Assembly (NCBI RefSeq): GCF_025602895.1
Contig: NW_026516212.1
Span: 930,001-994,000 of the forward strand
Length of the DNA stretch: 64,000 nucleotides
Source: Polychytrium aggregatum
Lineage: Eukaryota; Chytridiomycota; Chytridiomycetes; Polychytriales
Direction: 5' to 3'
The translations under genes and the position numbers were made by a program. The first letter of the stretch is position 1; each line of letters opens with the position of its first letter. The notes under the pieces were generated by a model. It ran no database searches. It worked only from the letters and a program-made list of their open reading frames with translations, and was not told where the DNA came from. Positions 14,222 through 42,895 of the stretch are shown here, piece by piece.

Positions 14222-16983
14222 TCATTTTAGACTGGATGTAATCTCAGCAACCACTTTGCGCTTGTACCCCTCCCAGTTCTTACGAGTGAGGAACTTTTCT
14301 TGAAGCTCCGAGATTGAGACCCCCAGCAAGCCCTCGTGCTCGATCATGGTTTTCAGAGACTCGAGATCGATGGCTCGCAAGAAATCGAGCTTGGTAAACA
14401 TGACACACTCCACCCTTTGTATCGTGATCACGGAGAGATCCAGCCCTGCTGCCATGTTTTCCATCATCGAAGTCTTGCGGTGGTTCCGAAGCCCCGGATT
14501 TGCGTTGAAATCACGCGAGGGCCAGGCTGTGATGCCAGCACACTTGAGTACAAACGCCAGCAGCAGATTAACAATCGCGATATCGACGTCCTGGCTGCGG
14601 TAGTAGAAGGAGTCTTCCTGGAGAATATGCAGTTTCGGGAAATAGTCACCAGGAATCAGATCACCAATGGCGAGCACCTCGTTGACGACCTCGTAACCCT
14701 CTGGAACTTGGGTTCCGAACTGATACGGAATCGGCTCCCGCGCAAGCGATGAGGATGAGAGCTTCAGAAACGGAACTATCCGCATGGCCCGGCATTGCCC
14801 ACGAAGCAGAATGAATACGTGCTCATGGCCGGCTCCGCCTGGCTTGACAATCGAGGCCCCCGGCTCGAATTTGACAATGTGTGAGACTTGGCAGAGTCGC
14901 GACAGCAACAGCTCATCTGTCGATGCGAAATAGGGTAGCTTCTGGAAAAACGACGCTCGGCTTCCAATCGAGGCCGGGTCGTTTTCGCCAAACATTGTAA
15001 TGTAATCGTCCTTGTCGATGCGGAGGAGCTCCACGGCGCTGAGGCTGCTCACTGTGACGGTTCGGATCTCACCCGGCGCGGAGAGGGAAAACTCGCCAAA
15101 CTGGTCGCCGGGTGAGAGATGGATGTGTTCGTTGATGTTGGTCAGGGTGGTGCTTTGACAAAGTCCAGTGACGATAAAGTACATGGAGATGGACGGGTAT
15201 CCGCGGCGAATGATGGTCCGTCCGGGCCCAAAATACTCCCAGTGCATGATCTTGGCCAGGTTCATTCGGAGCTTGCGGGAGAACTTTGAAAAGGAGGGCA
15301 GGCGACAAAGCAGTTGGTCCAGCAACTTGCGATCGTCATCAGTGCGATTCGCTGGTGGCATTGTTACAATGTGCTTGACCTTGGCGGCCATCAGAGACTC
15401 GTTGCGGACCTTCATCTCATGAAGCTGGTCCGACAGAGTAACGATCCGATTTGGATTTGTCGGGAGCAGGTTGGACTCCATGGCTGCGACCACGGTGCCG
15501 ATCGACGAGATGTTCTGCAGTGCGGATTTGTTTGCCGGGTTAACTGGATCCTTGAATGCATAGACGCTGCGTACCATTTTCATGACTCGGTGGAGCACAT
15601 AAGCTGGGAGAGTCGATGCCGGTGTGAGTGACGCTGTGGAGATGCTCTCAAGAAGCAGCATCCGGCTCCGCCTCTGGCACTCGGGAACATGAAGAGCAGG
15701 GACAGAACATGTCCAGCGGCACACATATTCTGCCTGCAGACGACACAGAGGGCCAGCTTACTCCATTTTTCCGAAGACGTTTGCATCGTGCCCTCAGTTT
15801 CAAGCTGTTGGGGAGGATCCACTTCATCCACAAGCGATGAAACAGACGTCCGAAGCGATGATTTCGACAGCTTGCTCGACTCTCCTCCAGAAGGGTCCAG
15901 ATGGATGTTGGAGCCGGGGCTCCTTTGTAAGCGCTGGTCTGATGAGCCGGTTGGCAATCGATGGTGGGAGCCATAAGGTCCCAGCAGCCCCGCGATGTTC
16001 TGGGCCGACTGGGCACTCGCCAAGTTCGAATTACTCTGGCTATGGTGCCTGGCGGATTTTCCACCAAGCTGCGACGAACTCAAATGCAGTCGACGATCCA
16101 TCAGCGACGATAGCGGTCGTGGCTCAAGAGGCTGGATCGCAGGATCGCTGTTGACATCGTGGCTGTCGGTGAGCGTCACGAGCGGCGACGAGCCCCGGCG
16201 AGATGAGCCTCCGTCTGCAGTCGCAATGTTTGGTCCTGGAGCAGATGCATCAGCGATGCCGCCGTCTCGTATCGATGGGCCAAACCGCCCGAGGGCTAGG
16301 AAACGATTTTGGTGCTGGCGCTCATCGAACTTGGGCCCCTCGTGATGCGCTATGTCCTCGGGCTGGCTCTGGTCGCGAACGGACTTGAGAGGCTGATGCT
16401 TGTTCAAGAGCTGCCTGGGCTCATTTTCGTTCTCGGACAACGGGCGCTGTTGACCAGCAGCCCTGTCCGCTGCAGCTTCGGATGCCTGAGTGCGTGGCGG
16501 CGGGACCATGGTTTCGAGAGATAGACCTGTCGGCGGCGGTGGAGGTTGGGTCAATCCTCTGTTTCGCCGCACGGCGACGGCCTCCAGACCCACTCTGGAA
16601 CTGCTGTTGAAGGAATTGGACTTGCGAAGGGGGTTTTGAGCATAATCAGCTCTGGATTTCGATGAAACAACCGATTGCGGCCGAAACGGCTGTGTTGGTG
16701 GCTGGGATGCTGGAGCAAGCGATGGCGAGCCTTCGGTCGAACCTGCCCCAGGTGTCTGCATCCGCTCGCATTTCGCACTGGGGGGCTGCCGGGCCGGTGT
16801 GAGATTTTTGAGCTTCACCAGGCTCGGCAGCTGAGGAGTCGAGCCCTTTCTCGAGTCGCCGTCAGGCTGGGATGGAGTTCCGGGCTTCGACACCAGAAGG
16901 GCCCGGGCTGGCCGGATCTTGCGGGGGTCGTCAGAGAGCAGCGGCAGCGGCATTGCAGCATTCGTCGATTTTCGTCGGCTCAT
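14222..16983 (-). CDS. cyclic-nucleotide-binding domain protein with long disordered N-terminus
   Basis: Two exons, 16983-15762 and 15633-14222 (2634 nt, 877 aa), joined across a GTAAGC donor. Residues 1-400 are rich in Ser, Pro, Gln and Arg without visible structure (start MSRRKSTNAAMP). The first cyclic-nucleotide-binding fold spans about 500-620. Its phosphate-binding cassette reads FGEFSLSAPGEIRTVTV (about 585), keeping the FGE and an Arg that in the family contact ribose and phosphate. A second, degenerate fold follows: RASFFQKLPYFASTDELLL begins it, and its cassette region (PGDYFPKLHIL) lacks the Arg. It is not a protein kinase or channel: no kinase domain or membrane segments are present. 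The layout resembles CNBD2-like proteins, an inference. Its 5' end faces CFAP144, and cyclase A ends 2 kb away, so it is a candidate receptor for the local cyclases. Confidence 0.88.
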
Positions 16984-18970: not shown

Positions 18971-21900
18971 TCACTCAGGCGGCGCAGCGCCTTCGGCCTC
19001 CCGTCTGTTCTCGAGTAGCGTTGTCGTCTCGACTGGGAGGGGCTTTGTCAAGTTCTCCTTTCCGGCCAGCCAGTACGTGTTCATCAAGCCCTTGCCCTGA
19101 TGTGCATCGGACAAGGCAAAGGGCGGCAACCCCGCGAAGGGAATCGTTACTCGCCGTGCATGTCCCAGCATAGGCGTAGCACGTTATCTTGAGCGACACA
19201 TCGTCATCCCAACGCCCGAGCGACAATGACCAAATCCTGAAAACACCATGGGGCACAGTGGTACATACCTTGACCTTGGTCTCCCCGCGGCTGATCAGAT
19301 AGTAGCCTCCGGCTCGGTTTAGTGCCAGGTAACATGGCTCGCTGATCTGGATCTTCATGGGCTCGCCTGAAGACATCATGCGCGAAGCCACATTGATGGT
19401 ATCGCCAAACAAGCAATAACTGACAGGCCGGTGTCTGGTTAGCTAAGACTGCGGATCACTTGGCAATCGCTAACGGCCCATAGTTCGGAAACATGCGAGC
19501 ACACGCATACACATATGTATGCAAACATGTGCACGGACATGATACCGCACAAATGCACAAATGCACAAATGCACAAATGCACAAATGCAATCACAAGTAC
19601 ATGCACGAATATAAGGCGCGGAGAAGTGTGCAGCCCGAGATGTCGAATTATAGCATGATTATGAAACAGCATATTCGACCGGCAACTGTAGTCGAGCGCT
19701 TACTCACCGAGGCATCTTCAAGCCCACCACACCAGCAGCAATAGGGCCCGTGTTGACGCCGATTTGAACCTTGAGCTTGAAGTCTGGTCTCGAAGGCAAC
19801 TTGAAGCTCAGAGCAGCGGAGAGGAGGTCCAGAGCCAAGTCGGCGATCTCGGAGGTATGCAGTTGGCCATTGCGGTTGGGCAGTCCCGAGGCGACGACAT
19901 AGGAGTCATTGATGGTTTCAACCTTGTAGGCATCGTGTTGGCTGATGACCTGAATACGGGTACGGCATTGATCAGTTTGCATATCGAGGCGCATGCTCGT
20001 GGCAGAACCACATCACTCGGCTTGCGCTCACCTCGTCAAAGGTCGTGTAGAGACCGTTAAGGAGCTCAACCATCTCGAGGGGCGTGCTCTGCGCACAAAT
20101 GTCACTGTATCCGACAATATTGGAAAACAGGAGCGTGCACGAGTCGTATGACTCTGGGATAATCTGCTTGCCGGCAACGAGCTGCTTCTGTATAGCCGGC
20201 GGAAGCATTTGCGACAACAGTGAGTCTGACTTGGCCTTGGAGCGATCGACCTCGTGGATAAGATCCTCGATTTCCTTCTTCTTCTGGAGATCAGCCGAGC
20301 GCCGCTGTTCTTCTATGGCGACCTCCTCAGTGAGGTCTCGAACGATACCCGTGAATAGATGTGCGCCATCCTGTCGAGGCGAGGTTATAGGAGAATAAGC
20401 ATTTCGGATCTGGCAACGTGCCGAAACTCAACCGCACCCGGATTGCCGATTGGTGGAGGTCCCGAAATGAGACAGGCCCGCTCACAAAACAGAGCCAGGA
20501 AGACCACTTACATCGCGGACTTCTGAGACCGAAATGTGCACCGGGAAGAGCGAGCCGTCCTTCTTTTTTCCAAAGGCTCTGCGACCATACCCGATGATCT
20601 TTTTGATGCCAGTGGTGAGATAGTTGATCAGGAACTGGTCGTGGATACTGGCGATTTCTTCTGGCTGGAGCATCTTGATGTTTTTCCCAATGACTTCGGC
20701 TGCCTTGTAGCCAAACATAGCCTCGGCGGCGCTGGGCGAGGGATACGATATAGATATACAAGTGGTCAGTATCAGAGCGCCACTCGAAGCAGCGCCGATG
20801 TTACGCGACAATGGTGCAGACCACGGACAGCATTCAGTTTGGACAGCGCATCACCGACTCGATCGCCATTGCCCGAGAACCTATTTTGCCTCTCCCTACT
20901 CACTTGTTGAACCGGGTGATGATTCCAGTGGGGTCGATGTTAATGATACCGTTAATGACGGTGTCGAGGACAGAGTTGAGCACACGGCGCTCGACCATCA
21001 TCTTGGACTCAGCGTCGTGAACGGATGCCTCCATCTGGATCTCCTTCTCCTGCAAAGAGTACAAAGCCGACATTTCGCTTTCGTGCGCCTCCAGCATCTC
21101 GCGCATCTCCGCGGCCTGGTCCTCCTCCAGCTCCTTGGTTCGCTCGGCAATATCGCTTTCGAGCTTCTCGAGCTCGGACTTTTGGACTTCCAGCATCGAG
21201 GCTCGAGACTCACGATGCTTTTGCGTGAGTCGCTTGATCGAGGCCGCTTGTCGATCCGCAGCGCTGTTCTGCTGCTCGTCGTCGAGGTCTTCGTCCTCTT
21301 CGGCTTCTTCATTCAAGGCAACAGCACGAGAATCATCGCCGCGAGGGACTCCGGAGGCGACCGACATCACATCACTGCCAGCATCCGAACGATCATCGGC
21401 GCCCATGTCGCTGACGGAAGCAGTGCACGACGCACTCTGAGACTGAGCAACACTTCTAGAGATTCGATTCCCTCCGGCCTTTGCGCCTTTGATGGCACGC
21501 AGGCGGGTATCTTGCTGAGCACGCAAAGCGCGCACTTGTTGGCGATGAAGATAGCTGAGCTTCTTGATCTCAGAAGCATGCTGCGCCTCGAGTGAGGACA
21601 GTTTGGTCTGCTCCTTAATCAAGAGCAGGCGCTCCTTCTCTGAGTGCAGTTCCAGGGTCTGCTGGATGCCAAGTTCGGCGATCTGGCTGAAATGCTGAGC
21701 CTTCAAGGTTTGGACGTCTTCATAGGACTGGTACTCAAGATCAAACTTTTCCTTGGCCTACAATCATGCTCAATATGTCAAAAAGCTATCATCCATCCAC
21801 AATAGCTCCTGGTGAAGCAACCGACAGTATTGATGCTGAAGCATGACTGGAGACAATGTGGGAGACAGATGCGCATCCCGAAGGAAACCTCGGGTGCATT

Positions 21901-22959
21901 TGGATCCGCGGACTTACGTGCTTGAGCTCGAGCTGCTGGATCTCTTGCAGCTGGTCGGCAATGCGCTTGTCTGCGGCATTCTGGTGATTCATGCGAACCA
22001 TGAACTTCTTTTGCATGGTCCTTCTGACTTCAACCTGTCCGTGACAAAGTTGCACACGTTTGTGGGCAAATCCGGTTGACAGCGCGATAAAAGCACAGCG
22101 TTAGTGCAGCCGTATGGCAGCAAGGACCACTGCGACCCAGCACCATCAGACACGAAGCGAAACTGTCTGCGTCGCAACGGAGGCGGGATGATCGCGGATT
22201 TATGCTAGCAAACTGGGCGTGTCCATCAATCCACCAAATCCCACGCGTTTCTGTATGCTGGTGCAGCACCCGCAGCCGAATGGCAGTTTGGTTTTGCAGC
22301 AAGCCGCGGCTCCATTGCCGTTCACGTCGACCTACCCTTTCGTGCGAGTTTTGCATCTCATCCAACACTCGTTCGTACTGGATCTTTCGCTCTTGAGCGG
22401 ACGCCAGCTGGCGTCGCTGTTTCTCGTGTTTGTTCTCGAGAAAAGCCGTGAGAGCGTCGAATTGATTTCGCTTCGCTGTCAGCGTACTCTTGACGCGAGC
22501 GGCTTCTCGAGAGGCCGTCTCCTGCTCCATGATGGTTCGGTCTCGTCGCTTCATGTCGCGGATGGTCTGTCGCTGGAGCCGCTTGGCCTTTTTGCGGGCA
22601 TCGCGAGCTGATATGAACCGCTGGAAGGCCTCCTTCTTCTGGGCAAACTCGTTCTGCTGGAGCCCCTTCAAATGAGCCATTTCGGCATCATGTCGCTGGA
22701 TCAAATAGGCCTCCTCCTCCTTTCGCAGCACCTCCCGCTCGGACTCTTTCATAGCCTCCTCGATGCGGACACAGTCATTGCGCAAGTTCTCGTAAAAAAA
22801 CTTGGTCTGGGTCATCAGGACGGACTTGAAATGCTGTGTGATCTCATCGTTGGTCATCGGACCCTTCGATTTCAGCTGTTGGTTGAGTTCATCGTCGGCG
22901 GCGCTGGTTCCGACATCAGACTTGATCTCGTCGTGGGTGGTGATGGTTGGAACGTCCAT
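18971..22959 (-). CDS. PAS-guanylyl cyclase A: first metal Asp replaced by Asn
   Basis: Class III nucleotidyl cyclase, 890 aa. Eight exons: 22959-22336, 22034-21918, 21757-20904, 20731-20512, 20370-20032, 19949-19708, 19419-19269, 19096-18971 (2673 nt). Order: charged coiled-coil N-terminus (about 40-210, [19 protein letters not shown]), further coiled coil to about 500, PAS domain (about 505-615), signalling helix, cyclase domain (about 660-850). PAS resembles FixL: His562 (IHDQF) and Arg582 (IIGYGR) fall on the haem-ligand and distal-Arg positions. Cyclase residues: LLFSNIVGY puts Asn689 where the first metal Asp should be; Asp733 keeps the second; Glu729 and Cys801 are guanine-type selectivity residues; Asn808 and Arg812 are the transition-state pair. 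No membrane segment. It may lack homodimer activity but can supply the substrate half to a partner. Confidence 0.93.
19547..19588. repeat. 8-bp tandem repeat (gcacaaat x5) in an intron of cyclase A
   Basis: Five perfect head-to-tail copies of gcacaaat, inside the 19420-19707 intron. A simple repeat likely to vary in copy number; no function is implied. Confidence 0.95.
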
Positions 22960-23807
22960 TTCTCACGCTAGCTTGGCGGACAGCTGAGGAGCAGGCAAGG
23001 CGGGACGTTGGTTGTTCAGCAAACGCTTGTGGGTACGCAGCAGAAGGAGACGCCGATGGAAAAATGGGTTGAGAACTGAATGGTGGTCGAGAAGACAGAA
23101 GGCGGGATGGCGATGAAAGGAAGTCGAGCCTTAGTCGAGCACCCAAGAGCTACAGAGGTCCTGGTGATGGAGAAAGCCTTGCATCGACGTCGGTCTCTGC
23201 CGCAAAAGCCGGACTCGTCAGGCAGCAAGCGACGGACGTCACCCCTGAGGCGAATCAACAGTCGGTGGCATTGTCGGCGACTCCTGATCCGCCCGGGCTC
23301 GTTCAATCATGGGCGCCCTGCCAGTTCGCATTGACTATTGCGTTGTCAAGTGACGATATTGTCGTTAGCTGTCGCTGTCGGACGGCAACTCAGGCCGGTG
23401 GTCGCTGAGCCAGATTGGCTTGACTGAGTGCAGGATGACCTCAATAACGCAAAGGGCTCGACCGGGACGACAATCGCCGTTGAAGTCACCAGCGGATGCC
23501 TGAAGCACAGCTGGTTCATCAGCAGTAGAGCAGTGACTGGACAACCTATCATCAGATTCTCCTGCCGACCAGCAGCCATGCGGGCAGGAGTTGGATCTGG
23601 CATGTTGAGGCGGCCCGAGCGAATCCGCTGGGCAAAGCGAAAGGCGCCGAGTTTTTCCGCCAGCGAAGTGTATATGAATCGTGTCCCTCAGAGCCGACCT
23701 TGCCCTGAGCTGACCGCAGGAGACAGCGATCGCATCCAGATCGCATCCAGATCGCATTCAGATCGCATCCAGATCGCACGGTGGATCCAGAGGAGCCTCC
23801 AAGAATC
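22960..23807. promoter_or_regulatory. divergent region between cyclase A and photolyase
   Basis: 848 bp between two start codons pointing outward. Frames across it carry no recognisable content. It includes the 11-bp tandem array listed separately just upstream of the photolyase start. Confidence 0.5.
23728..23778. repeat. 11-bp tandem array upstream of the photolyase gene
   Basis: Four copies of gatcgcatcca (third has one change, c to t) plus a partial fifth, ending 29 bases before the photolyase ATG. The period is close to one helical turn. It could be promoter, 5' leader or neutral satellite. Confidence 0.9.
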
Positions 23808-26036
23808 ATGAGCCAGCCGCCTGTTGCCAAACGAGCCAAGATGGCTGACGTCCAGCCCAAAAACGGCCCTTCCCCCGCTGGAGGAACTGTCCTGATGTGG
23901 TTTCGGATATCGGATCTCCGAGTCCAGGTGGGCAACGCAAAGGTCCTGAGGCCGATCTGAAGCTTCGGTTTAGCGCATATCTGTCGACCGTTGCTGCTAT
24001 TCAGGGCGCTGGCTGCCAGTGCAACAGATGGGGCTGGATGTCTCCGATGCTGATTGTCGCTGTGGCCTCGCCTATCCCAGGACAACACTGCCCTGCACAA
24101 TGCGTCGCAGCATGCCACCAGCAACAATCTCAAGCTGATGGCCATGTTTGTCGTTTCACCGGTCGAGTGGGCCTTCCATGACGTTGCGCCTGTCCGGGTC
24201 GACTTTATCCTTCGCAATCTGCACGTCCTGAAGCAAAAGCTTGGTGCCCTGGCGATCCCGCTGGACATCCTCCAAGACGACGGACCTGTACCTGACGAGC
24301 ACATCCCTCGAAACCAGCGCATCGCTGAGATCAATGTCCGTGTTGCCGACCTGGTTGCCGCCAACGTCGCCCGATGGAATGCCAAGGCGGTCTTCTGGAA
24401 CAAGGAGTACGAGATCGACGAGACGTTCCGGGACGATCTGGTCAAGAGCCGACTGATGGGCACCGCCCTCGTTTGCGACTTTCATGATCAGTGCGCCGTT
24501 CCTCCAGGGATCTGCAAGACAGGCCAGGGCGGCCCCTACACCGTCTTCACGCCGTATAGAAACAGGTTGGTCTTGGTCGGTCGTGGTTGAGCGCTGCGAG
24601 CTGGGTGGTCCCTGTCGTCGGCAAAGTAGCCGGACTCACCGATAACTTGGCCACATTCAGATGGACAGAAGTTGCCACCAGGAACCCGGCCTATCTCACG
24701 GTGCTGCCCTCTCCCCAGGCAAACACCCTGCCTCTGCCTGAGCCTCTGCAGATGCTGTTGGATGCAGGAGGCTGCGAGATCCCTGAGCTTCCAAGCGCAT
24801 TCAAGGTTGAGCAGGAGCGGCTCGAAGCTGTGCGTCTACTATTCCCGGCTGGCGAGGATCATGCTGTCAAGCTCCTCCAGGATTTCATATCGACCAAACT
24901 GGATCGATACAAGGACCAGCGAGACCTTCCAGCAGCAGACGGCACCTCGACGCTTTCGCCCTACTTTTCTCTTGGGGTGATATCGGCACGCCGCTGTGTT
25001 TCTCTTGCCAGAGCCGCCAATGGCAACAAGATGGAGTCAGGCAAAGCCGGCGCTGTCCAGTGGATCTCCGAGGTTTGTTGGAGGGACTTTTACCGCAACA
25101 TCTTGGTCGAGTTTCCCAAGGTATGCAAGGGCCGACCATTCAAGCCCGAGACAGACAAGCTTGCTTGGTCCTACGACAAGACTGCTTTTCAGGCATGGTG
25201 CGAGGGCAAGACGGGCTTTCCGATTGTCGATGCGGGTGAGTTGAGGGATTTCGAGCGGCTGAGCTCATGGCGCTGTACAATCTTTGCATTGCGGGGCCCA
25301 CCATCACCAAAGGAATTGGTCCTAGTCGCGATCTCGGAAATCTGTGCACTGACGGTTGCAATGTCGATCCACAACGGCAACTACAATCGAAGGCATGAGA
25401 CAGCTGAACGCCACCGGCTGGATGCACAACCGTCTGCGCATGATTGTCGCAAGCTTCTTGACCAAAGACCTGCTGATCGACTGGAGAATGGGCGAGGAGT
25501 ATTTCATGAAGAGCCTGATCGACGGCGATTTCGCTTCAAACAACGGAGGATGGCAATGGGTAAGGCGCATCTACAGAAACATCTCGTGTTTTCAGGTTGA
25601 TGTGACCGGCTCACGGCTGATTCGCTCCTCTACGATTCAGACTGCTTCGACCGGTACAGATGCACAGCCGTACTTCCGAATCTTCAACCCATTTTCACAA
25701 AGCGAGCGCTTTGATCCCAACGGCCAATTCATCGCCAAATGGGTCCCGGAACTGGCAGGTCTCAAGGGCACGGCGGCTATTCATGATCCATTCAGCAAGC
25801 TTGACAAGAAGGCGTTTCAAAAGCTCAAGTAAGCCGATACCTGCCAGCGTTCCTAGACTGCTCGAACTGTAATGAATGAAGCGCAATGCTGACACCTTGG
25901 CTCATCCACTTGTGTTCTTGCGGTTACGCCTGCATGGTCTTTGGCACCGAATGACATCAGCTATCCCAAGCCCATGGTCGATCACAAAGTTGCGCGCCAG
26001 AAGGCGATCCAAGCCTTCAAGGCGCTAAAGAGCTGA
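23808..26036 (+). CDS. PHR1: class I CPD photolyase
   Basis: Blue-light flavoenzyme that splits cyclobutane pyrimidine dimers. Six exons: 23808-23927, 24081-24565, 24661-25235, 25393-25559, 25641-25828, 25961-26036; 1611 nt, 536 aa. N-terminal antenna-binding domain starts [20 protein letters not shown] (about 29-48). The FAD-binding half holds [43 protein letters not shown] and then the [19 protein letters not shown] block (about 440-455), which is characteristic of microbial class I CPD photolyases and contains Trp positions of the electron-transfer chain. It ends [15 protein letters not shown], the usual C-terminal helix. A short basic PVAKRAK near the start may be a nuclear signal. No cryptochrome-type C-terminal extension. 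It shares a divergent promoter region with cyclase A and converges on cyclase B. Confidence 0.96.
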
Positions 26037-26739
26037 TATGGCAGAGAATCACAAGACTCAGCCATGAGAGTAAAGCAGGGTAGACGGCCGCAAATACTGC
26101 ATGCGCAAAGTAGAATGGATTGCCCACTTGAATGGGGTGCGGTTGTGTAAGCCTGTATGGCATTTGCCCAAGAGCACCTACGCCATCCGCCGTTGAAATG
26201 TAACCGGTGCAAATGCCTCCATCTCGGTAATAGGATGCCGCGGACTTGTTGATCTCCGCTGGCTGAATAGCCTCCCACTCTCGCTAGTCGAATAGCCTCC
26301 CACTCTCGCTGGCAATGGCCGCTCCCTGTTGAGCACACCGCCGAGTTCCTGTGGTTGGTCCCGATAACATGTGGCCGGCTTGGATACAGTGATCTTGCCA
26401 ACATTGCAATATCGGTGGGATCTGAGTCCAGCGATACTGTTAAGCCCGCAGCGATGGAGCATCGCCGGGTGCTGAGTAAATGCCTTCCTCCTGGACTCGG
26501 TGCATACTATTTGTATTGCTTCTACAGTGTAAATCGTTGCATGTATTCAACCCAGCATAGGCGCGACCAGTGGCCACAATCATGGTAAACCATTTCGCTT
26601 TGTGGTTGTTACAACAAAGGCAAGCCGCCGCTCAGCATTGGTAAAGTAACCCCAGGTCGTGGAGGCGGATAGCAAATCCGACAAAAATAACGAGCATTGC
26701 AACGAAAAAAGGACTGAAATATCTGTTGCCTCTGGGCTG
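26037..26739. other. convergent intergenic region between photolyase and cyclase B
   Basis: 703 bp between two stop codons. No gene seen. It contains a 21-bp direct repeat (listed separately). Confidence 0.45.
26265..26310. repeat. 21-bp direct repeat, two copies 25 bp apart
   Basis: A perfect duplication beginning gaatagcctcccactc at 26265-26285 and 26290-26310, separated by four bases (agtc). Lies between two 3' ends. Confidence 0.9.
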
Positions 26740-29700
26740 TCAATCGATCTGCTGTTGTGGCTCAAGAGTCTCAGCAACCGTCGTGATCATAACCGAGGGC
26801 TCCCGAGAATGGCTGCCACCCAATCCCTCCTTGCCAGGAACAGAGAGTCGTCTGGCTGCCGGTGTAGCAGTATTGCTTGGGTTGGTTGAGAGACACTTGG
26901 TTTCCAGAGGTAGATCGAAGGGAAATCCATCCTTTCCGACCAGCCAATACGACCTTCTCCCTTTCTTGTCCTGCAATCAACGTTCCGGACACGTCAGCGC
27001 GGGTATGTCGTGGCAACGTGCGCTATTGTCGATCGCAGACAGAATAGCAGAATGCCTCAACCGAATACTTGCCCCAGTGAGCGGCATATCGGTCCTGCAT
27101 ACGAGCTCGTACGATCCGTCTCTTTGCAAGAGTCTGTAGGTTGTCTCGCTGACTTGGATTCGCATCGGCTGTCCCGACGACTCCATCTTTGAGGCATCAA
27201 CAACGGTTTCTCCCTAAGAGACGCAGTTGCACTGTCAGTCAGTATTACGATGGCGAATATGTCAAAAATTACACACAGAATATACTTACAAACAAGCAAT
27301 ATCTGCGGATCGATCAAGGGCAAATCAGATTCAGCCAAAATGAGATGAAAAACAGGCGTGGCCACCGGATACAGCGCGACATTGGGTCAGTGTTGTTGAC
27401 ATCCATAGAGTTGCACAGGCGACATGGTTGGTCCGGGTCAAAGTATGATGCTGAACCTCAGCAATGTGCCCACGAGTCGTGGTAATGCCATGAACAACTG
27501 TTACCGTCCCGCCATACCTTGGCATCTTGAGTCCCACGACGCCAGCTACCACCGGACCAGAGTGCATGCCGATGCGCATGCGAAGCTGGAGTTCTGGACG
27601 GTTTGGTACAACAAAGGAGTGGACGGCCGAGAGCAAATGCAGGGACATGTCGGCGATCTGGCAGGCGTGCATATCTCCATTGCGAACAGGGACGCCAGAC
27701 GCCACCATGTACGAATCGCCAATTGTCTCGACCTTGTAGGCGTCGTACTGGCTGATGATCTACACACAGGAGCGATGACATCGGGACAGTACGAGCCAAG
27801 CAAATTCCAACAATGTGTTGATGGGGATTTGTCAGTAAAGGGTCTGCTACCGCTCCAAAGGAACCCACGCGCTGTTGAGCGGTAGGAGCTTCCGAAGACA
27901 TAAACGAAAAATGATCATCGCCGCCATTGCCAGCCGAACAACCGCACGTTCTAGGGCCTTTCCGGCATCAACTCCGCGCTCATCAATGGCGAGAACACTC
28001 ACTTCGTCAAACATGGTGTAGAGACTGTTGAGTAGCTCAACCATCTGCATCGGGGTGCTCTTCGAGCTGATCTCGGTGAAGCCGCAGATGTCAGAGTATA
28101 GGATTGTGCATTTGTCGAACGACTCTGGCACGATCGACTTTCCGGCGATAAGCTGTGACTGAATCGCGGGCGGGAGCATCTGCCCAAGGATGTCGTCGGC
28201 CTTTTGCTTGGCAACGTCGAGCTCTTTCAAGAGAACTTCGAGCTCGCGCTGTTTCTGTTCGTCTTTCTCGCGCTGCTCTTCCTCCAGGCGAACTTCTTCG
28301 GTAAGATCTCGCACAATGCCCGTAAACAGATGGGCGCCCTCCTGTTGAGGTTTGCAGCATAAACACAGATTATGAGGCGTCGGATCCGCATGAAATCCCA
28401 AGGCACTCCAATTCAATTGCGAACATATCGAGGATGCTGCAGGTAAAGCGCACGCCATTAGTCGGCATCATGCCATCATGTGGCACAGGCTGCTCAGTAT
28501 GTACCTCCAGCACTTCAGACACTGAAATGTGCACCGGGAATGTCGTGCCATCCTTCTTGAGTCCAAATGCTCGGCGTCCGGAGCCAATGATTTTGGCAAT
28601 GCCGGTCGTCAGATAGTTGGTCAGGAAGCTGTCGTGGTTTCGAGCAATTTCTTCAGTCTGCAGCATCTTGACGTTCTTGCCAATCACCTCATCGGATGTA
28701 TACTGGAACATTTTCTCAGCAGCACTGAAAGGCAGATGGGGTCAACATTGTCAGCATTGTCGATGAGATCCCACGCAGTCACGCTCCACATGCAGAGCAT
28801 GATTTTCCAGCCGGATTTTCCAGCCGGAACCGCCAGCGCAGCCAACCTGTTGAAGCGCGTAATGGTGCCTTTGGGATTGATGTTGACGATGCCGTCGACG
28901 ACCGTCGCAAGCACAGAGTTCAGAACTCTTCGCTCGATAAGCATCTTGGCCTCGGCTTCGTGGACCGACTCCTCCATTTGGACTTCTTTCGCCTGGATGC
29001 TTTTGACAAATTCAATGTCTTTGTGGTGGCCATCGAGAAGCTCTCTCATTTCGGCCTGTTGGTTTTCTTCAAGCTCGCGCGTGCGCGAGGCAATTAGATT
29101 CTCCAGCTTGGTGAGTTCTGCTCTGTGCATCTCCTTCAGCGACGAGATGGCATCCTTGTGCTTTGAAGCCAGTTTGCGAATAACCTCGGCGCTGGAGTTT
29201 TGTTGATTCTCCTCGTCTCCGTTCTCATCTTCTTCCTCGTCGGTGACTCCAGAAACAGATGACATTGCCCTACGACCACCACCCGAGCGCCGGTCGCCGT
29301 GCATACTCGCAGTGTCCGACATGAGATCATCGTCGTCGAAGCCCGATGTACGGCTTTGGAACTTATCACTTGAAGTCGCACCGCCCGAGCTCCGACTTCC
29401 CAGGGCTGTTGGCAAATTGTCGGCGGCGCGGATTCCTCGGAGTCTGGATCAAGGAAAGGGCATTCGTGGGTGTAAGCACCGCGCCGAGTGAGCGATGCCG
29501 TGTGCGGATCGATTGATACCAACCTCAACTCTTGCTGTTGCTTCAGCGCTCGGAGTTGATCTCTGTGAGTCTTGCCGAATTTTTTCATTTCAATGACGTG
29601 GCGAGCCTCCAGGGTGGTAAGCTTGGTCTGCTCTCGGTGGGCAAGCAGTCTCTCCTTTTCGGCCTGGAGCTCGAGTATCTGGCTTGCCATGAGTTCCGAG

Positions 29701-30731
29701 ACACCTTTGACATGGAGGGCCTTGAGATTGTGGATATCCTCGTGGGACTGGAATTCCAGGTCAAAGGTTTCCTTGGCCTTCAAGGGGCCGCGACTGTCAG
29801 CACAAGTCCAACTGTTGTGCTGTCGGCGCATTCAGCTCCGACTTGCTCTCGTGGTGCCCTGCCCCTGCCTGCACACGCCAGTTCCGATGACCCCCAGCGC
29901 CGAGTGATCACGACAAGCGACTCACATGCTTGAGTTCCATTTGCTGGACCTCCCGAAGCTGATCTGAAATCCGCTTGTCGAGGGCTTTCTGGTGGGTAAG
30001 CTTGGCCTGGAATTTCTTTTGCATCGTCCGACGAATTTCGTCCTACAGCGAAGCAAGGCAGGGTTAAATCCTTGTAGAGCTACAATTTGTCGTTTTCGCG
30101 GAACAAGGAAGCTGACCCATTTGCACTCAAGACACCCGCAGAAATCGCTTTGCGCCACTGGCCCAGCAAACTGACTCGAGCGGCGGCTTACTCGCTCATT
30201 CGCGTACTGGATCCCGTCCAACATCTTCTCATACTGAATCCTTCTGTCTTGAGCCGCGTAGAGCTGGCGACGTTGCTTGTCGTGCTTGTTATCGAGATGA
30301 GAAAGAAGAGCATCGAATTGAGTGCGTTTGGCGGTGAGGGTTGATTTCACTCTCGCCGCTTCCTTAGAAGCGGTCTCCTGCTCCATGATGATGGCATCAC
30401 GGCGCTTCATATCCCGGATGGTCTGGCGGTTCAGCTTCTTGGCCTTCTTGCGGGCATCTCGGGCGGCAATATATCGTTGGAACTGTGCCTTGAGCTGGCT
30501 AACTTCGTCTTGCTGAAGTTTCTTAAGATGGGATATCTCTGCATCGTGTCGGTGCATCAGATAAGCTTCCTCCTCTTTGCGCAGGACCTCGTTCTCGGCG
30601 CCCTTCATGCCATCCTCGATTTTGAGGGCCTCATGGCGCAAGCCGTCGAAAAATTTGGACCCGGCATTCTGGGCTGTGACGCCCGCGGCGCCGGCCGAGT
30701 GCTTTGTGGGGCTTTGACTGGGCTGGCTCAT
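26740..30731 (-). CDS. PAS-guanylyl cyclase B: metal Asp kept, transition-state Asn/Arg lost
   Basis: Paralogue of cyclase A, 897 aa. Ten exons: 30731-30192, 30042-29926, 29777-29524, 29443-28847, 28724-28505, 28341-28003, 27759-27518, 27302-27290, 27213-27073, 26970-26740 (2694 nt). Same layout: coiled-coil N-terminus ([19 protein letters not shown]), PAS (His533 in NHDSF, Arg553 in IIGSGR), signalling helix, cyclase. Metal residues Asp660 (YSDICGF) and Asp704 (ETIGDSY) are intact; Glu700 and Cys772 fit guanine selectivity. But [10 protein letters not shown] has Val779 where Asn is expected and Lys783 where Arg is expected. Two splice oddities: a 13-nt exon coding the RYCLF loop, and a probable GC-AG intron (27072-26971), which alone keeps the frame into SYWLVGKD. 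The C-terminal tail after the cyclase is about 40 residues longer than in A. Confidence 0.92.
27290..27302 (-). other. 13-nt microexon of cyclase B
   Basis: Between an AG at 27304-27303 and a GTAAGT donor at 27289-27284. It completes an Arg codon and adds Tyr-Cys-Leu-Phe, exactly the residues A and C encode at this point inside longer exons. Without it, the cyclase would lose its selectivity Cys and the frame would shift. Confidence 0.85.
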
Positions 30732-31508: not shown

Positions 31509-34500
31509 ATGACCGAGGTTGCATCTGCAACTAGCGAAGCACCCGGTGGGGTTGATACCACGGGGTGTGTCGACTGGGGTACCGTTGCCAAGAGCAACGA
31601 CAGCATTCTTGACTACTTCAAGACCAACATGGGCCATAGAACCACTGACTTCTACAGTGCCTTGCGGGCAGACTGTGAAAGAATCGAAGAGTCAATGAAA
31701 ACCTCTGAGCATGAGGTCCTTCGTAAGGAAGAAGATGCGTACCTCGAACAGCGCAACAACGCGGAAGAAGCTCACCTGAAACAGCTGCACCAGGAAGAGA
31801 TCAATTATTACAAAGCTCGATTCCAGAGCTTCCTGGCGTCGAGAGATGCGCGTAAGAAAGCAAAGAAGCTCCAGCGGCAAACCATCCGGGACATGAAGCG
31901 CCGCGACATCCTGATCGCCGAGCAGGAGAGCGCATCGAAGGAGGAAGAGAGGATCAAGTCGACACAAACCGAAAAACGGGTCGCCTTTGATCGCTTGATT
32001 GCGTTCCTGAACAACAAGCATGACAAGCAGCGCCGACAGCTCTTGGCCGCCCAAGAACGAAAGATCCAGTATGAACGAGTGCTGGACGAAATGATGCACT
32101 CGCACGAAAAGGTACGAGTGATGCCTGCGAGTGAGCGAGTGCGATTGTGAGAGGGAGTATGATGAAGATTTGAAGTGTAGAGTTATATTGGACATGAGCG
32201 GGAAGTGCCGTGAAGGCAGTGATGTATCGCTTTGGCCATTGTCTTTCACTCACTCGCTCACTCACTCACTCACTTGCTCGCATTCTGGGCAACGAACTGA
32301 AACTCTCAGGTCGAAGTGAGAAGATCAATGGAAAAAAAGTCACTTGCCCGGATCAACCACCAGATTGCTGCAAACAAACGTGTTGCCGACCAGCTCCAGG
32401 AAGTTCAGCAGCTCGAACTCCAGCAGGTGGGCTCTAGCGCAGCACTTGAATGAGCTGCCTTAAAATCGTCCTGCATAGTCTCAATGCCATGAGTATTGTA
32501 TTGATATATGTGCATCAATCTTCTTCAACTGATTCCTAATGCTCTCATACTCTCGTCCACTTTGTCCAGCTCAAGGAAAAGTTTGACCTTGACTTTGAAA
32601 CCCTCGAAACTGTTCAGAACATGAAGATCACCCATGCCAAGCTTGTCGCCGAGGCCACATCGTCCAACTTGTCCGAGATCAACCAAGAAAAGGAGAAAAT
32701 CATCTCGCTCAAGGAAAAGCTCAAGCTTGAGCGATTGGAGCTGGAGCACGCTGGTAGCATGCAAACTTTATTGCACCGCCATATCGCCGAACTCCGCCAG
32801 CTCCGCGAAGCACAGAACATGAGGTATATCGATGCACAGTCGGATAGAATCCTTCGACACCATAAACTAACAGACCAAATCTGTTTCCAACAGCTCCATT
32901 GGATTAGCAAAGAAGGGCGATAACAGTTTCCTTGGATCGAACCTCAGTCTTGTTCACTCTGTCGCTTCCAAAAACGACAGCAACTTGGATTTGAGTCCAC
33001 CGCCCAAGGGCGATACTGCCTCCGAGCGTGGCGAGCCCGTGAGACTTTCCAAGACGAGTTTTCGAAGGGAAAAGTCCACTACTTCCCGAAGCGGAAAAGA
33101 CAGAGTAAACTCCATACAGTCCCAGGAAAGAGACAGTGTCACAAGCGAAGAGGAAGATCGGCGGATCCAACTCAAGGTTGACGGGTCCACCCTCGAGAGA
33201 CTCCGAGTCAAGCATTCAAACGCTCTCAGCATCCTCTATGATGCGCAAAAGGCCGAGATCGAAGAGGTTCAAGTCAACATGGACAAGCGCAAGCGAGAGC
33301 TTGAGGCATCACACGCCATTGAAATGCGAGAGCTCGTTGAATCGCACAACAGTGAGATCGAGACTCTGTACTCAAACCAAGAGAAGGAGATTCAAATGGA
33401 GGCATCCGTACACGAAGCCGAGGCCCGTATGCTTGTGGAGCGCAAGGTGCTCTACTCTGTCGTGGACAGCGTCATCAGCGGCATCATCACCATCGATCCC
33501 ATCGGAACTATAACTCGATTCAACAGGTGAGCCAAGGAGTGTGGGTTGGGTGGCACGATTCTCACTTTGAGCGCTTCCTGGGCCTCTGTTGACGAGGCTT
33601 CTGGCTGAGTTGCGACAAACGTTTCACCGATAGAGCGGCCGAGCAAATGTTTGGGTACCAGGCGAGCGAGGTTATTGGAAAGAACATCAAGATGCTCCAG
33701 CCCCACGAGATCGCTGTCCAGCACGACTTCTTCTTGTCGCGCTACCTCGAAACCGGAGTGCGTCGCATCATCGGCCACGGCCGAAAAGCGGAGGGCGTCA
33801 AGAAAAACGGATCTCGCTTCCCGGTGCACATCTCCGTGTCTGAAGTTCTGGAGGTATGAAAGCCCTTATCTTATAGTCTGTACCGTCATTGAATGGATTG
33901 ATCATCCAGTATCGAGGCCCGGTGATAATATGAATCGCGGTACTCGAATAGAAGGACGCCAGACGAAGGCCTAACAAGCATTCGGAATCATTTCTTATCA
34001 GGAGGGAATCCATCTGTTCACGGGTATCGTCCGAGACCTCACCGATATGGTTGAATATGAAAACAAGCAAGCCCATATCGCTCTCCAAAAGCAAGAACAG
34101 ATCAAATTGCTCCTTTGGGAACTAGACGAGACCAAGAAGAGATCGGATGTACTCCTTGCGGAGGTGATGCCCCCTTCGATCAGCAAAACACTTTCGAGCG
34201 GCAAGCCGCCTACTCCTGAGCAGTTCAGCTCGGCAACCATTTTGTTCTCGAGCATCGTGGGCTTCAGTGAAATGTATATCAGCACGACTCCAACAGAAAT
34301 CGTTGAGCTCCTGAATTTGGTCTACAGTACCCTCGACGAGGTAATTCTTTGGAAAGGTGTAACCTTGGTGTGGAGTGTTGCGACCTTTTCTATCGAGATC
34401 CAGTCGCTCTTACTTAGACCCAGTGAACGGATGGCGCTTTGACGCCAGGCAGTTTTACGATAGAACAGCGGTCCATTGCGTGCGCTGCGGGTCACAGTCC

Positions 34501-35228
34501 GCCCCAAGTTACTCGCTGAGTGACAATCCTTTGGACTATAGGTCATCAGCATGCACAACGTCTACAAAGTCGATTCTGTTCAAGGCTGCTACATCGTGGC
34601 CTCAGGTCTGGACAGCCAGAACAGTGGTGACCACGCTGCAGAGATTGCCAGCTTGGCACTAAGCTTTCTCTCGGTCGTAAACCAACTGTCGATCCCTACA
34701 CGAAACGACATGAGGCTGAAGATTCAGCTGGGCATTCATACCGGTCCAGTTATGGCTGGCGTGGTGGGCACTGCGCGCCCAAGGTATGGGCAATGCAGAT
34801 TTCACGATGCTGGTCCGCGTGCGAGCATAGTAAGCCGCAGCCAGCGATCTTGGGGACACCGCGGTCGCGGGCACAATCCATAGAGTCGAGCAGCGTGTGA
34901 CATAGTGTCATAGCAGCCACTCCAAATGCCTCCCGATCGACTGACACTTGACTTGACGACCCTTTGCTTATGTATTCCGTCCAGATACCGGCTCTTTGGT
35001 CAGACCCTGCAGACAGCATCGCGGCTGATGGACTCTGGCCTTCCCATGCGAGTTCAAGTCAGCGAGGACACCTACAAGCAGCTGTCTCAGTCCGGAGGCT
35101 TCAAGTTGGCGAAGCGAGGAGAAACCGTGGTGCGAGGAGAAGATGCCACTACCACCTACTGGCTGGTCGGCAAGGAGAACAGCTCCGAGCCACTTCCAGA
35201 GGAAACAACATCGCTTCTCTCCGAGTAA
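31509..35228 (+). CDS. PAS-cyclase paralogue C, predicted pseudocyclase
   Basis: Third paralogue, 883 aa. Eight exons: 31509-32111, 32310-32426, 32570-32823, 32894-33526, 33634-33853, 34002-34340, 34542-34783, 34985-35228 (2652 nt). Same order as A and B: coiled-coil N-terminus with [22 protein letters not shown] (His566 in QHDFF, Arg572 in LSRYL, Arg586 in IIGHGR), signalling helix, cyclase fold. The catalytic site is broken in the sequence: LFSSIVGF has Ser693 for the first metal Asp, VDSVQGCY has Gly737 for the second and Asp733 for the selectivity Glu, YRLFGQT has Arg805 for Cys, and Gln812 replaces Asn; only Arg816 remains. The frame is clean and the fold motifs (GIHTGPVMAGVVG, TYWLVGKENS) are kept, so it looks like a maintained pseudoenzyme, not a decayed gene. 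Confidence 0.92.
32246..32281. repeat. tcac tetranucleotide repeat in cyclase C intron 1
   Basis: About eight imperfect copies of cact/gctc in the 32112-32309 intron. Simple repeat. Confidence 0.85.

Positions 35229-36251: not shown

Positions 36252-42895
<6,644 letters not shown>

Follow-up and report, generated by a model that had tools for sequence, protein, structure and literature searches.

Can two cyclases with differently broken active sites mend each other? The question is raised by cyclases A and B, two class III cyclase genes on the reverse strand of a 64,000-nucleotide stretch of the Polychytrium aggregatum genome (RefSeq assembly GCF_025602895.1, contig NW_026516212.1, positions 930,001 to 994,000), referred to here as the window. 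The first-pass annotation of this DNA had proposed that A and B form an obligate heterodimer, each chain supplying the catalytic residues that the other lacks. Our analysis adds a FixL-like PAS sensor domain and four further genes (C, D, E and F) to that proposal. The six genes share one domain order without internal stops, and we think it probable that the family encodes obligate heterodimeric, heme-PAS-regulated guanylyl cyclases, each built from one A-type chain (A or F) and one B-type chain (B, D or E).

Cyclase A (18971..22959, reverse strand) encodes 890 amino acids in eight exons (22959-22336, 22034-21918, 21757-20904, 20731-20512, 20370-20032, 19949-19708, 19419-19269 and 19096-18971), joined across GT-AG introns without an internal stop. 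The spliced model, checked by hand, starts at a presumed ATG at 22959 and its stop codon ends at 18971. The protein comprises, in order, a coiled coil, an acidic linker, a FixL-like PAS domain, a helical linker and a guanylyl cyclase domain, with profile matches to PF00211 (7.8e-58) and PAS (1.3e-14). Alignment of the spliced model places Asn689 (20119..20121) at the position of the first metal-binding Asp, while Glu729, Asp733, Cys801 (codon starting at 19415) and both transition-state residues, Asn808 and Arg812 (19380..19394), are retained. The residues first reported for A (689 N, 729 E, 801 C, 808 N and 812 R) were reproduced by this model down to their exact numbering. Two further changes had been absent from that account: residue 732 is Asn where Gly is expected, and the phosphate-binding, metal-side Arg is replaced by Gln.

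Cyclase B (about 26929..30731, reverse strand; 3′ end not fixed) has the same architecture, with matches to PF00211 (1e-59) and PAS_9 (1.3e-14). Its exons lie at 30731-30192, 30042-29926, 29777-29524, ~29443-28847, 28724-28505, 28341-28003 and 27759-27518, followed by a 13-nt microexon (27302-27290), an exon at 27213-27062 and a last one at 26956-26929 or beyond. The microexon, which has a 13-nt counterpart at the equivalent place in paralogues D and E, contains the Cys of the active site; the next exon contains both substituted transition-state positions. The spliced model confirmed the residues reported earlier: B keeps the first and second metal Asp (Asp660, 28090..28092, and Asp704, codon starting at 27717), as well as the Glu and Cys, and has Val779 and Lys783 (27187..27201) in place of the transition-state Asn and Arg. 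The linker exon can be spliced in 27 ways, and the number 660 is obtained with one of them (acceptor 29443), with which the remaining sites number 704, 779 and 783 by alignment spacing; the residue identities are independent of the choice.

Gene models were made from DNA alone with a purpose-built spliced protein-to-DNA aligner allowing GT-AG and GC-AG introns only, with mending by hand for A and B. GT-AG introns account for 52 of the 54 modelled, and a few terminal introns are spurious. Paralogue C (31509..35228, forward strand) has the architecture of A and B (PF00211 5.9e-48). D and E were located on the contig holding the window (C2, of which the window is 930001-994000), at about 311.7-315.5 kb on the reverse strand and about 705.0-708.5 kb on the forward strand, respectively, and F on contig C90 at about 587.7-591.7 kb on the reverse strand. 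The models of these three skip the linker; the N-terminal exons of the D model are spurious and the tail of E is uncertain.

The catalytic positions of the six proteins were compared in an alignment without gaps around the sites, in the order first metal Asp, second metal Asp, metal-side Arg / Glu, Cys, Asn, Arg. A and F both read N D Q / E C N R. The B-type chains read D D R / E C V K (B), D D R / E C T R (D) and D D R / E C A R (E), and C reads S G Q / D R Q R. By comparison, the receptor cyclases NPR1 and GC-C read D D R / E C N R, and human soluble guanylyl cyclase (sGC) reads D D R / E C T K in alpha1 and G D T / E C N R in beta1. Thus, A-type chains have Asn for the first metal Asp and Gln for the phosphate-binding Arg and keep Glu, Cys, Asn and Arg, whereas B-type chains keep both metal Asp and the metal-side Arg and have Val, Thr or Ala for the transition-state Asn. 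In other words, B, D and E are intact on the metal side and A and F on the base and transition-state side. All six have the class III cyclase domain (PF00211), and the guanine-type Glu and Cys are present in all except C (Asp and Arg).

No single chain carries the full catalytic set (0/6), and every pairing of an A-type with a B-type chain yields exactly one full site. The prediction of one full site for A+B therefore agrees with the site table, including at the metal-side Arg, which lay outside the earlier proposal and falls on the predicted side. Two things strengthen the logic of the heterodimer: F repeats the A-type half of the split and D and E the B-type half, and the split matches human sGC beta1 and alpha1 column by column. 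What did not survive is the exclusivity of the A+B pair: with A and F on one side and B, D and E on the other, six pairs are possible. Nor does the change of Arg to Lys define the class: it is confined to B among the six members, and D and E keep the Arg, which bears on a refuting condition that the first-pass annotation had itself named. The Asn was recovered in neither of these two paralogues; when the gene strand at the B, D and E loci was scanned for an Asn motif, no alternative exon carrying one came up. The split has also persisted: between A and F, the cyclase domains share 80% identity and have a ratio of nonsynonymous to synonymous divergence (dN/dS) of about 0.05, and those of B vs. 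D and E give about 0.08-0.10; synonymous sites are near saturation in both comparisons, making these values, obtained by a simple counting method, rough.

The sensor would be a heme-binding PAS domain. It spans 20320..20979 in A (two introns inside) and 28290..28922 in B, both on the reverse strand and with approximate ends; in each, the positions of the heme His and the ligand Arg are conserved. Pfam recognizes PAS domains in A, B and C, to which D, E and F can be aligned in this region. In a search of the PDB with the PAS domain of A alone, the best match was FixL (6.4e-29), with DosP at 1.9e-15; both are heme-PAS oxygen (O2) sensors. The Arg220 of FixL is the O2 partner. The positions of FixL His200 and Arg220 are His and Arg in all six members, Ile215 is kept in all six, and Leu236 and Ile238 are represented by Ile and Val. 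Since both His200 and Arg220 positions are kept throughout the family, its PAS domains likely bind heme. The available sections of PMC10765370 describe His194 of S. meliloti FixL, the equivalent of His200 of B. japonicum FixL, as binding the heme iron. The family is unlike FixL and DosP in its output, which is a cyclase domain rather than a histidine kinase or phosphodiesterase. No H-NOX domain (PF07700) was present among the matches of A, B and C, nor in the genome by an exon-wise search whose control was positive in 1 of 14 genomes, and the domain matches of A, B and C included no rhodopsin family. No fungal heme-PAS guanylyl cyclase was found in the portions of the open-licence literature available.

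The closest parallel to the split site is sGC, where the Asp pair and R574 come from the alpha subunit and E473, N548 and R552 from the beta subunit (PMC7289801, in the sections available). The same residues are lost on the same sides, A-type chains resembling beta1 and B-type chains alpha1, down to the Thr of D and the Lys of B. Both systems also place a heme sensor (here a probable one) and a helix before the cyclase, the HNOBA match in A and B being weak, below cut-off and restricted to the helical linker. Such likeness could mean that the split was inherited from an animal-type sGC alpha/beta pair and that the sensor was swapped later. The family differs from sGC, however, in having a FixL-like PAS domain for H-NOX, a long N-terminal coiled coil and a clade of its own. 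In a tree of 13 cyclase domains (the six members, NPR1, GC-C, sGC alpha1 and beta1, the two halves of AC8 and one adenylyl cyclase of the fungus itself), the six formed one group with an ultrafast bootstrap (UFBoot) of 86, within which support was 100 for B, D, E, 92 for A, F and 94 for A, F, C (81, 99, 94 and 82, respectively, with ten catalytic columns masked). Grouping A and F with beta1 and, jointly, B, D and E with alpha1 was rejected by the approximately unbiased (AU) test (p = 0.0025), as was grouping A and F with beta1 alone (AU p = 0.007); B, D and E with alpha1 alone was marginally disfavoured, with no rejection at 0.05 (AU p = 0.061). The six also share the coiled coil, the PAS domain and, by eye, several intron positions. 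We regard inheritance from sGC as very improbable. Because the six are placed apart from sGC, in a tree that could shift with wider sampling, the split appears to be convergent. Among solved structures, the B cyclase domain is closest to that of NPR1 (3.5e-68, vs. 6.4e-46 for sGC alpha); the receptor guanylyl cyclases NPR1 and GC-C differ from the family in having the full residue set and in being homodimeric membrane receptors.

Would B-type chains need a partner at all? They could be active homodimeric guanylyl cyclases that tolerate the loss of the Asn, with the A-type chains and C as regulatory or inhibitory pseudo-subunits. B, D and E do keep both metal Asp, the Glu and the Cys, D and E also the Arg, and substitutions of the Asn are tolerated in some class III enzymes. 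This is nonetheless unlikely: although synonymous divergence between A and F is close to saturation, both have kept Glu, Cys, Asn and Arg, residues for which a chain with a purely regulatory role would have no use, and C, unlike A and F, illustrates their erosion. A second argument comes from the rhodopsin guanylyl cyclases of chytrids, NeoR and its RGC partners, which are heterodimeric enzymes of zoosporic fungi. NeoR is without the Asn and Arg, as in the B-type chains, having T455 and K459 at these positions, and according to the sections of PMC12264004 available its cyclase domain is inactive alone, whereas that of RGC1 is active alone. The NeoR system differs in its light sensor and in that only the NeoR partner is broken, RGC1 and RGC2 having every residue recognized as important for cyclization (PMC8815786, available sections). 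The absence of a full site in any member and the plain degeneracy of C would also fit a family made up entirely of pseudocyclases, sensors or scaffolds that make no cyclic guanosine monophosphate (cGMP). We find this quite improbable, in view of the low dN/dS of the A/F and B/D/E cyclase domains and their retention of exactly the residues that a heterodimer needs; the genome also encodes cyclic-nucleotide phosphodiesterase domains (PF00233, 40 exon matches), which may serve cyclic adenosine monophosphate (cAMP). Lastly, the pattern might be an artefact of the gene models or the assembly, the aligner imposing GT-AG or GC-AG introns and the Cys of B sitting in a 13-nt exon. An error that left six genes with the same domain order and no internal stops, almost uniformly GT-AG introns, the same microexon in B, D and E, and no alternative Asn exon is scarcely credible.

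Several observations nevertheless weigh against obligate heterodimers. As D and E keep the Arg, B-type homodimers may retain weak activity. In R. globosum heterodimers, restoring the Asn and Arg of NeoR did not regain activity (PMC12264004, same sections); residue lesions thus need not be the whole cause of inactivity, which calls for caution with arguments from residues only. Random placement of lesions over seven sites, two in A and one or two in B, is complementary in 30/147 (0.20) or 36/441 (0.08) cases, respectively, and counting lesions is therefore a weak argument; the weight of the complementarity comes from five genes that show the same split and have otherwise kept their residues. 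B-type chains keep the Glu and Cys and A-type chains the second Asp, none of which the productive site should require, as is also the case in sGC. Support for separating A, F and C from B, D and E is moderate (82-94). Within the sensor, FixL Arg206 is kept only in C (Asn in the other five) and His214 in none (Lys or Arg). Finally, the genome was searched exon by exon and only the best candidates were scored, and a member with a full site may be missing from the assembly.

The obligate heterodimer remains the reading we favour. One duplication would have given rise to two lineages with complementary lesions, whose chains would pair through the coiled coil and cyclase domains, homodimers of either type being inactive or nearly so. 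The heterodimer would have one site for guanosine triphosphate, with metals bound by the B-type chain and the base and transition-state residues provided by the A-type chain. The second site would be dead, possibly regulatory, as shown for the non-catalytic site of NeoR/RGC1, where blocking nucleotide binding raised activity up to ninefold (PMC12264004, same sections). A gas (O2, nitric oxide or carbon monoxide) bound to the heme of the PAS domain would act on the coiled coil and in this way alter the output of cGMP. We infer dimerisation, catalysis, heme and ligand binding, and which pairs form, from the sequences, the residues, the paralogues, the tree and the similarity of the PAS domain.

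Gene C has a separate fate. At the positions of the first metal Asp, Glu, second metal Asp, Cys, Asn and Arg it has Ser, Asp, Gly, Arg, Gln and Arg; its catalytic residues are almost all replaced and the heme positions of its PAS domain retained. We predict it to be a pseudocyclase, unable by its residues to complete a site with any member, which may act as a regulator. The nonsynonymous divergence (dN) of C from A, B and F is 0.46-0.55 in the cyclase domain vs. 0.24-0.28 in the PAS domain. With a dN/dS that remains at about 0.2-0.3, C is not an obvious pseudogene. C stands head-to-head with B, their presumed ATGs 777 bp apart, and A, B and C lie together within 17 kb, an arrangement that fits joint control; D, E and F are located elsewhere.

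D and E are a patchwork of similarity. They are 96.3% identical across a 1046-bp block that covers, together with its introns, most of the cyclase domain, vs. 69.5% in the block containing the second coiled coil and the greater part of the PAS domain and 91.8% and 79.5% in two blocks further upstream, a pattern that suggests gene conversion between loci about 390 kb apart, or unequal histories. Despite the near-identical cyclase block, the two differ at the Asn position (Thr and Ala, respectively).

The assembly surveyed comprises 64.7 Mb in 418 contigs and contains 48 exon matches to PF00211, D, E and F each being matched by exon. Used as a query, the PAS-cyclase portion of A was matched 37 times, with 30 of the matches falling within the six genes, three in one adenylyl-type cyclase present on three similar contigs, and four at E values of 8e-4 to 9e-4. 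Fifteen cyclase regions outside the window were examined; three are D, E and F, and the other 12 represent about six more cyclase genes, of which five occur on two or three similar contigs each. The non-family loci that could be read have Lys/Asp-type or other residues at the base positions, not Glu/Cys, several of these models being forced by a distant query and those of the C371, C168/C362 and C364/C385 loci being unreliable beyond the matched exons. The adenylyl-type cyclase (C386, C17 and C135) has a full Lys/Asp-type site, read on C386, and complete class III sites therefore exist in this genome. The duplicated cyclase genes, on C113/C405, C390/C397, C168/C362, C364/C385 and the trio C17/C135/C386, lie on contigs mostly 97-100% identical there (91-99% for C135), as in an unmerged diploid assembly; A to F were found once each. 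A scan with the six-protein alignment of a contig collection without eukaryotes returned one distant bacterial cyclase (27% identity), and none from viral contigs.

Three other genes of the window lie within or beside the cluster. Downstream of A on the same strand, an open frame at 14222-15757 has a cyclic-nucleotide-binding domain (PF00027, 2.6e-15) and is a possible effector of cGMP or cAMP. A DNA photolyase/cryptochrome-like gene lies between A and B (24560-25832, forward strand; PF03441 3.2e-16 in the frame 24560-25600), and a gene at 38560-41434 on the reverse strand looks, by eye, like an ABC transporter of the multidrug-resistance-protein class. Elsewhere in the genome, exon matches to chitin synthase (PF01644, 26) and to the DM10 domain (PF06565, 14), a domain linked to flagella, fit a fungus with flagellated spores, and the host thus probably makes swimming spores.

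Taken as a whole, the locus may belong to an independently evolved, gas-sensing soluble guanylyl cyclase of a zoosporic fungus, with a FixL-type heme PAS domain, an obligate A/B heterodimer, tuning by mix-and-match of two A-type and three B-type chains, and C as a competing or regulatory subunit; we put this full picture forward tentatively, as a serious possibility short of an expectation. If true, the alpha/beta design of the nitric oxide receptor would have been reached independently by evolution, in a genome in which no H-NOX was found and with a bacterial-type heme PAS domain in its place. The idea that complementary losses followed a duplication could be tested in this family, which would also supply a candidate gas sensor for the behaviour of zoospores.

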